The position numbers and the translations under genes are program-made. Shown in pieces: positions 14,746 through 34,530 of a stretch of DNA of 34,530 nt. The number at the start of each line of letters is the position of its first letter. Position 1 is the first letter of the stretch. This DNA comes from a bacterium (lineage in GTDB: Bacteria > Pseudomonadota > Gammaproteobacteria > Burkholderiales > SG8-41), in the NCBI GenBank assembly GCA_027310225.1, contig DAIDBG010000317.1, positions 1 through 34,530 on the forward strand. The letters are read 5' to 3'. Under the pieces are notes generated by a model. It did no database searches, had not been told where the DNA came from, and saw only the letters and a program-made list of their open reading frames with translations.

Positions 14746-14775
14746 ATTATTTGCGGATTCCCCGCAAATTGTCAA
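14746..14775 (-). promoter_or_regulatory. pepA promoter with palindrome in the spacer
   Basis: On the minus strand, TTGACA (14775-14770) is separated by 18 bp from AATAAT (14751-14746), leaving about 20 nt of leader before pepA. The spacer and the edge of the -10 hold a perfect inverted repeat, CCGCAAAT/ATTTGCGG (14762-14769 and 14749-14756, 5-nt centre), well placed for a repressor. Confidence 0.6.
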
Positions 14776-32913: not shown

Positions 32914-32942
32914 TTGACAGGCCGGGAAGGCTTGATTATATT
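32914..32942 (+). promoter_or_regulatory. Strong sigma70 promoter of the rubrerythrin gene
   Basis: TTGACA (32914-32919, perfect), a 17-bp spacer and TATATT (32937-32942, 5 of 6). It is the best promoter in the window. Transcription should begin around 32949-32950, leaving a roughly 100-nt leader. Confidence 0.8.
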
Positions 32943-32950
32943 CTTTCCAT

Positions 32951-32971
32951 AAATCAGACTTAGTCTAATTT
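32951..32971. promoter_or_regulatory. 21-bp palindromic operator candidate downstream of the rubrerythrin promoter
   Basis: AAATCAGACTTAGTCTAATTT is symmetric about the central T at 32961, with one mismatched pair (C/A). It covers about +1 to +21, where a bound repressor would block transcription. The GACT-AGTC core recalls Rrf2/IscR-type sites, but spacing differs, so the regulator is unassigned. Confidence 0.6.
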
Positions 32972-33000
32972 CTGTTTTGACAGCAGAAAGGAGTGAGTCT

Positions 33001-33039
33001 TTGCACAATTCGATAATGAGTTATCAACCATTTGATTGA
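33001..33039 (+). CDS. Possible 12-codon upstream ORF in the rubrerythrin leader
   Basis: TTG 33001 is preceded by AAAGGAG and encodes MHNSIMSYQPFD. Its TGA (33037-33039) merges with the AAAGGAG ribosome site of the rubrerythrin gene (TTGAAAGGAG). That geometry would couple the two translations. There is no protein-level support. Confidence 0.25.
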   Translation: MHNSIMSYQPFD

Positions 33040-33051
33040 AAGGAGTAATCC

Positions 33052-33471
33052 ATGCAACTCAAAGGTTCCAAAACACATGAGAATTTGAAGGCTGCCTTTG
33101 GCGGCGAATCAATGGCGAACCGGCGCTACCTCTATTTCGCTGCGAAGGCCGACGTCGAAGGTCAAAACGACGTTTCCGCAGTTTTTCGCTCCACCGCCGA
33201 GGGAGAAACTGGCCACGCCCACGGCCATCTCGAGTACCTGGAATCTTGTGGTGATCCGGCGACCGACCTGCCGTTCGGGAAGACCCGCGAGAACCTCAAG
33301 GCGGCGATTGCGGGCGAGACCCACGAATACACCGACATGTATCCGGGGATGGCCAAGACCGCGCGCCAGGAAGGGTTCAGCGAAATTGCCGACTGGTTCG
33401 AGACGCTGGCCAAGGCCGAGCGCTCCCACGCCAACCGCTTCCAGAAGGCGCTGGACGCGCTGGTCGACTGA
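33052..33471 (+). CDS. Rubrerythrin-family diiron protein without rubredoxin domain
   Basis: A 139-residue protein with an excellent ribosome site (AAAGGAG). Helix motifs [69 protein letters not shown] and [11 protein letters not shown] provide the glutamates and histidines of the diiron site (two ExxH). It has no C-terminal CxxC rubredoxin module, so an outside electron donor is needed. Family members reduce hydrogen peroxide. The strong promoter, operator and terminator show independent, probably stress-linked control. The Fe-S protein downstream may be its partner. Confidence 0.93.
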
Positions 33472-33488: not shown

Positions 33489-33524
33489 AAGGCGGGAGAC
33501 GGAAACCCGGCTTCCGCCTTTTTT
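33489..33524 (+). terminator. Rho-independent terminator after rubrerythrin
   Basis: AAGGCGGGAG (33489-33498) pairs with CTTCCGCCTT (33511-33520), 10 bp with one G-U, 12-nt loop, followed by a run of six T. It lies 18 bp after the rubrerythrin stop. Confidence 0.9.
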
Positions 33525-33555: not shown

Positions 33556-34530
33556 ATGACGGTACGCGAGGGGAGCATCGAGGCTCCCACCCGCCATCCA
33601 CTCGACTGGAAATCGCCGAGCTTCTACGACGAGGCCAAAGTCGAGAAAGAGCTCGAGCGGGTTTTCGAAATCTGCCATGGCTGCCGGCGCTGCGTGAACC
33701 TGTGCACAGCGTTCCCGACGCTGTTCGACCTGGTCGACGAGAGCGAGACCATGGAGGTCAATGGGGTCAGGAAGCAGGACTACCGGAAGGTGGTTGAACA
33801 GTGCTATCTGTGCGACATGTGCTACATGACGAAGTGCCCGTACGTGCCACCGCATCCCTGGAACGTGGATTTCCCGCACCTCATGCTGCGCGCAAAGGCG
33901 GTCAAGTTCAGGAAGGGCGGGGTGACGTTCCGGGACCGGCTGCTTTCCAGCACCGACGCCGTGGGCAAGCTCGCGACCATTCCGGTGGTGGTGCAACTGG
34001 TGAACGCCGTCAACAAGGCCCCGGCTGCACGCGCCTTCATGCATGCCACGCTCGGCGTTCACAAGGACCGGGTGCTGCCGGAGTACGCGAACACGCGGTT
34101 CCGGGCCTCGGCGCGGCCGCAATCATCGTCCGCACCGCGCGACGGCAGCCGCACGCCGGGCAAGGTGGCGCTGTTCTCAACCTGTTACGTCAATTACAAC
34201 GAGCCCGGCATCGGCCATGACCTGCTGAAGATCCTCGCCCACAACGAGATCCCCGCGGTCGTGGTGGAGAAAGAGGCATGCTGCGGCATGCCCAAGCTCG
34301 AGCTCGGCGATCTCGAGGCCGTCGCCCGCAACAAGGAGGTCAACCTTCCCGTACTCGCCGGTCTTGCGCGCGAGGGCTATGCCATTTTGACAGCCGTGCC
34401 CTCCTGCACGCTGATGTTCAAGCAGGAGCTGCCGCTGATGTTCCCGGATGACGCCGAAGTCGGGGCGGTGGCGGAGGCGGTGTTCGATCCTTTCGAGTAC
34501 CTGATGCTGCGCCACCGCGATGGCCTGCTC
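33556..34530 (+). CDS. Fe-S oxidoreductase (GlpC/HdrD-like, two 4Fe-4S clusters plus CCG domain), 3' end outside window
   Basis: ATG 33556 opens a frame that runs off the right edge, 325 codons so far; it is absent from the ORF track for that reason. Cluster 1 is CHGCRRCVNLC (Cys 40, 43, 46, 50) and cluster 2 is CYLCDMCYMTKCPY (Cys 83, 86, 89, 94). A cysteine-rich CCG-type domain follows, with FSTCYVNY at about 207-214 and EACCGMPKLELGD at 240-252. This is the layout of GlpC and HdrD-like subunits that pass electrons to a partner. In betaproteobacteria I recall it with rubrerythrin and a DUF3501 gene. It may be partly read from the rubrerythrin promoter. Confidence 0.9.
   Translation, partial: MTVREGSIEAPTRHPLDWKSPSFYDEAKVEKELERVFEICHGCRRCVNLCTAFPTLFDLVDESETMEVNGVRKQDYRKVVEQCYLCDMCYMTKCPYVPPHPWNVDFPHLMLRAKAVKFRKGGVTFRDRLLSSTDAVGKLATIPVVVQLVNAVNKAPAARAFMHATLGVHKDRVLPEYANTRFRASARPQSSSAPRDGSRTPGKVALFSTCYVNYNEPGIGHDLLKILAHNEIPAVVVEKEACCGMPKLELGDLEAVARNKEVNLPVLAGLAREGYAILTAVPSCTLMFKQELPLMFPDDAEVGAVAEAVFDPFEYLMLRHRDGLL

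Follow-up and report, generated by a model that had tools for sequence, protein, structure and literature searches.

A conserved box at the transcription start of a rubrerythrin operon and its putative repressor, an Irr-clade Fur-family protein of Beta- and Gammaproteobacteria

The rubrerythrin operon at the end of the window, by which we mean the whole 34,530-nucleotide stretch of DNA analysed here, raises the question of which regulator acts at its promoter and to what signal it responds. The original prediction described a near-consensus promoter, the strongest in the window, followed by a 21-bp palindrome overlapping the first transcribed bases, and both elements are present (Table 1). In a consensus scan of the window, this promoter is the only site on the forward strand that matches the consensus at 10 or more of 12 positions, and the congeners carry TTGACA-17/18-TATACT at the same location. 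A second promoter-like site, also scoring 11/12 (TTGACA-18-AATAAT), lies on the reverse strand at 14775. In the palindrome, 9 of 10 positions pair. Symmetry of this degree is by itself no rarer than chance, with five equally palindromic 21-mers in the window against 2.95 expected from shuffles; the reality of the site is shown by conservation.

Table 1. Features of the rubrerythrin promoter, leader, and operon (positions in the window)
Feature	Position	Strand	Remarks
Sigma70-type promoter, TTGACA-17-TATATT	32914..32942	+	11/12 consensus
Operator palindrome, AAATCAGACTTAGTCTAATTT	32951..32971	+	Candidate binding site for a Fur-family repressor of the Irr clade; spans the first transcribed bases
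15-bp conserved core, TCAGACTTAGTCTAA, consensus TTAGAnTnAnTCTAA	32954..32968	+	11 bp past the −10 hexamer
AAAGGAG ascribed to the mini-ORF	32987..32993	+	Without conservation in congeners
12-codon TTG frame (mini-ORF), TGA at 33037-33039	33001..33039	+	Judged a chance frame
Rubrerythrin Shine-Dalgarno, AAAGGAG	33039..33045	+	Lies in the TTGATTnAAAGGAG-like stretch conserved in the family
Rubrerythrin, short form, 139 aa, diiron domain match only	33052..33471	+	PF02915, 101.9 bits, 4.7e-29
Cysteine-rich (CCG domain) Fe-S protein, GlpC-like	33556..34530, runs past the window end	+	

Rubrerythrin homologues with their upstream DNA were collected from 86 relatives and 80 named genomes. A homologue of the Fe-S protein is found in 78 of the 80 named rubrerythrin loci. 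Between the two genes of the window, a terminator-like hairpin at 33500-33516 is followed by CCTTTTTT, so the Fe-S gene may be partly transcribed or have its own promoter. Four records titled Bordetella parapertussis, Mycobacteriaceae, or Phycisphaerales (L055, L074, L064, and L098) contain rubrerythrin loci of the beta-proteobacterial type, and these assemblies are probably mislabelled or contaminated.

When up to one mismatch is allowed, 62 of the 86 relatives have a core, TTAGAnnnnnTCTAA, upstream of rubrerythrin, and so do many named loci. Ten of its positions are near-invariant, and inner positions 7 and 9 favour T and A. The box of the window deviates from the core once, with C at 32955 where the other 61 box-bearing relatives have T. 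The distance at which the box begins behind the −10 hexamer, taking the promoter that scores best, is exactly 11 bp in 55 of the 62. This fixed spacing places the box over the transcription start, which corresponds to a repressor geometry, and the predicted role of the palindrome as a repressor operator is thereby strongly supported. At some more distant loci (L088, L093, and L100), the box lies within the −10 element or between the −35 and −10 elements, and L093 and L100 contain it in two copies. Such positions inside promoter elements fit DNA recognition and led us to reject an RNA hairpin as the meaning of the box. An Rfam scan of the rubrerythrin leader returned no credible family; the leader shows a moderate tendency to fold (z −2.6), but the leaders are without conservation. 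At one locus (L024), approximately 119 bp before rubrerythrin, the box is central in a perfect 41-bp palindrome, CTCGAGCCCAAGTTTAGACTCAGTCTAAACTTGGGCTCGAG; its genome, G052, is 99% complete, yet no gene for the Irr-like protein described below was found in it.

When defined more strictly, the box is close to single copy in the whole genomes of the relatives and is located mostly at rubrerythrin; most relatives in the family of the window show the box at rubrerythrin only. A genome-wide search found one copy in the genome of the window, again at rubrerythrin. The original prediction had expected such a search to define a regulon, and had named a unique and unconserved palindrome as the outcome that would count against it. 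That outcome applies only in part, the site being unique in this genome but highly conserved across relatives; a multi-gene regulon is not seen here. Class-wide, rubrerythrin is the commonest gene behind the box. According to Pfam assignments, the box elsewhere in Gammaproteobacteria also precedes katG (L212 and L220), di-haem cytochrome c peroxidase genes (L203 and L206), a peroxiredoxin gene (L221), and ahpC (L114), the last in a genome without a rubrerythrin match; a ferritin-like gene (L141) is a further target. Nearly all box targets belong to peroxide defence, with the qualification that some matches of the loose class-wide pattern are due to chance, as judged from reversed-pattern controls. 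A box at 2501-2517 of L208 (G215) lies before an oxyR-type LysR gene, so that in some Gammaproteobacteria OxyR may itself be a target of the repressor. Separately, a perfect box at 1501-1517 of L116 (G108) lies immediately upstream of an rpoS-like sigma factor gene.

Alongside Fur, the search for Fur-family proteins revealed a second group whose members are some 140 aa long, lack CxxC, and have PHHHFYNVDTGELTDI-like sequence. The profile of this Irr-like group is matched by 164 of the 377 genomes sampled from the class. Its nearest NCBIfam models are IrrA and Irr, with scores below the cut-offs (NF045677/NF045678, 118-134 bits where 150 is required and 111-125 where 170 is), and the closest solved structure is 5nl9, the atypical Leptospira PerR (63.2 bits with a single sequence, 94.8 with a profile). 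A maximum-likelihood tree splits 63 Irr and Irr-like rows from 11 Fur rows with support of 98/86. The Irr-like rows group with alpha-proteobacterial Irr, on a long branch of their own. All Beta/Gamma rows but one form a single branch (100/99) together with one long alpha row, although the alignment has few columns and the fine branching order is unsure. His93 and His95 are present in 35 of 35 Irr-like rows and His94 in 34 of 35, these being the HXH haem-site histidines, while a Cys-Pro pair near the N-terminus, of the haem-regulatory-motif type, occurs in only two of the 35. The structural zinc site formed by two CxxC motifs is absent from the clade, and the one row of 35 with a CxxC is probably the Zur-like row L261. 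All five PerR-type metal ligands (H39, D87, H93, H95, and D106) are invariant in the group. Their match coordinates against 2fe3 differ by a constant offset of 2 from the regulatory ligands of B. subtilis PerR (His37, Asp85, His91, His93, and Asp104). The recognition-helix Asn typical of PerR and Irr is likewise retained. The Asp and the Asn are features common to PerR and Irr, and the absence of CxxC is common to Irr and the Leptospira PerRs (PMC8638967). Because the group misses the curated cut-offs for Irr and lacks the structural zinc site of PerR, we classed it as neither; judged from sequence, it is best described as a putative peroxide repressor of Beta/Gammaproteobacteria that belongs to the Irr clade and resembles PerR.

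The distribution of this gene follows that of the box. Among the 86 relatives, 54 have both the Irr-like gene and the rubrerythrin box, 2 the gene only, 8 the box only, and 22 neither (Fisher, p ~7e-12). When any box is counted across the class, the corresponding numbers are 96, 68, 32, and 181 (n=377, p ~5e-19). The concordance holds within genera (5/5 versus 0/9 in g9 and 9/9 versus 1/5 in g2), so deep shared ancestry alone is not a sufficient explanation. The promoters of the Irr-like genes contain the box themselves, in 18 of 49 cases when up to one mismatch is allowed (0.1 expected) and in 33 of 49 when up to two are allowed (2.3 expected), mostly 20-50 bp ahead of the start. In the congener G002, the box TTAGACTCAGTCCAG is located 22 bp ahead of the start of the Irr-like gene. 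No Irr-like gene was found in the window's own assembly (G000, 88% complete), nor, even at a loose threshold, in seven further box-bearing genomes, including G001 (98%) and G052. These eight box-only genomes exceed what incompleteness alone would predict. The Irr-like gene of G002 adjoins pilY1/pilE, and contig C333 of the window's assembly ends inside its pilY1 match; the gene's other neighbour in G002 is found here on contig C94, adjoined by a different gene. The end of C333 at pilY1 perhaps explains the missing gene in G000, but not those in the other genomes. The two Fur-family proteins of this genome were rejected as binders: its Fur (L112), Fur being near-universal with or without the box, and a second protein (L113), which is Zur-like and encoded beside a ZIP-type transporter.

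The relatives without the box provide a further clue. Upstream of rubrerythrin, OxyR-type sites (AT[AT]G-N7-C[AT]AT) occur in 42 of 73 loci without the box and in none of 93 loci with it, against a chance expectation of about one per set; the p value of this exchange, ~9e-20, is approximate because two sources were pooled and some genomes were counted twice. Many of the sites are paired 22 bp apart, and most lie 80-200 bp before the start codon. We infer OxyR binding at these sites from the known OxyR pattern. In the wider family, OxyR homologues are present in genomes of both kinds, and at a threshold of 1e-60 none was found in the ten genomes of the window's genus (G000-G009). Many other genomes of the family have OxyR, in several of them (e.g. 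G014 and G020) beside a second rubrerythrin-like paralogue. OxyR itself was considered as the binder of the present box and rejected: the box resembles its sites in the TAG-N7-CTA spacing, but it has other conserved inner bases and is located at the start site, not upstream. The exchange between the box and OxyR-type sites is the best indirect evidence for a peroxide signal and makes induction by peroxide likely. The original prediction had named peroxide, oxygen, or iron-sulfur status as possible inducers; of these, peroxide gains indirect support from the target set and the exchange.

From these sequence comparisons, the palindrome is very probably the operator of a Fur-superfamily repressor from a Beta/Gammaproteobacterial sister clade of Irr. 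The repressor that was originally left unidentified thus acquires a named candidate, based on co-occurrence and own-promoter boxes. In the proposed mechanism, the dimeric regulator would occupy the transcription start and block RNA polymerase. Peroxide, or haem or iron status, would inactivate it, whereupon rubrerythrin would be made and peroxide removed. The Irr-like regulator would thereby fill the role that OxyR apparently plays at this operon in relatives lacking an Irr-like gene. We incline slightly towards a broader proposal, in which a large Beta/Gamma branch of the Irr family would be a dedicated peroxide-sensing repressor, often controlling only rubrerythrin and itself, and repeatedly swapped with the activator OxyR at this operon, the enzyme remaining peroxide-controlled throughout but with the sign of control inverted.

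The main competing account retains the same regulator and operator but, on the model of rhizobial Irr, takes the signal to be haem or iron status and relief by peroxide to be only secondary. The clade is a sister of Irr, which senses haem (PMC7762939), and it conserves the HHH stretch that holds the haem site of Irr. Its targets, however, are almost all peroxide scavengers rather than genes for the uptake of haem or iron. In addition, OxyR-type control takes the place of the box at the rubrerythrin operon of other relatives, the PerR metal site is complete, and the N-terminal Cys-Pro pair is rare; a haem or iron signal is possible but doubtful. It is improbable that a different repressor, either Fur or a member of another family, binds the palindrome and that the Irr-like gene merely travels along. 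Such a repressor would account for the eight genomes with a box and no detectable Irr-like gene; against it stand the boxes in the irr-like promoters, the concordance within genera, the near-universal occurrence of Fur irrespective of the box, and a comparison of the rubrerythrin loci in which no regulator gene recurs next to rubrerythrin.

The least credible alternative concerns translation. According to the original prediction, a coupled TTG-started mini-ORF with its own AAAGGAG runs up to the ribosome site of rubrerythrin and adds a further layer of control. As a leader peptide or through translational coupling, it would govern rubrerythrin translation. The frame exists as described, its stop overlapping the rubrerythrin Shine-Dalgarno, and a longer TTG frame of 20 codons from 32977 shares that stop. 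Its coupled role is not supported, the 12-codon frame being found in none of five congeners. Shuffled leaders contain comparable frames at least as often (24 of 62 real leaders against 30.5 ± 3.5; 4 against 4.9 when a Shine-Dalgarno is included), and the Rfam scan lends the leader no regulatory family. The conserved TTGATTnAAAGGAG-like stretch before the start codon supplies the TGA by coincidence. Translational steering of rubrerythrin by this frame is accordingly most unlikely, layered control through it is abandoned, and the repressor mechanism proposed above would assign it no role.

The proposed system resembles several known ones. In R. sphaeroides, Irr represses the rubrerythrin-like gene mbfA, whose transcription start lies inside the box, and also binds the ccpA promoter (PMC3413700); a box over the start of a rubrerythrin-like gene and the control of cytochrome c peroxidase are points in common with the present system. 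Irr has been described as confined to the Alphaproteobacteria with few exceptions and as a regulator of haem and iron (PMC7762939). The present clade shares with the Irr of Rhodobacter sphaeroides and Bradyrhizobium its position as a sister clade, the lack of CxxC, and the HHH stretch. It differs in its NCBIfam scores (111-134 bits against cut-offs of 150 and 170), in its occurrence in Beta/Gammaproteobacteria, in a predicted regulon of peroxide defence rather than haem and iron, and in the single rubrerythrin target shown by many genomes. The alpha-proteobacterial Irr-box consensus is TTTAGAAnnnTTCTAAA, and scanning alpha irr loci for the present core gave a weak result. With the PerRs of Bacillus and Leptospira (5nl9), the clade has in common the five metal ligands and the recognition-helix Asn; the structural zinc site is likewise missing from the Leptospira protein, whereas Bacillus PerR differs in having the structural CxxC site. 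The Bacillus PerR box has T/A at the fourth base of each arm, in contrast to G/C here. OxyR is similar in that it apparently controls the same rubrerythrin operon in relatives, through ATAG-N7-CTAT-type sites that are often paired, and differs in the activator-type position of these sites, most of which lie 80-200 bp ahead of the start codon and none of which occurs together with the box (0/93).

We found no published Irr or PerR regulon of Beta/Gammaproteobacteria that includes rubrerythrin in the open-licence literature. These findings point to a sister clade of Irr, with its own operator and a target set in peroxide defence, that is widespread in Beta/Gammaproteobacteria. Its exchange with OxyR-type control at one orthologous operon would constitute a clean, directly testable case of regulator replacement, and the single operator sequence makes the putative regulon readable in uncultured groundwater and soil bacteria.
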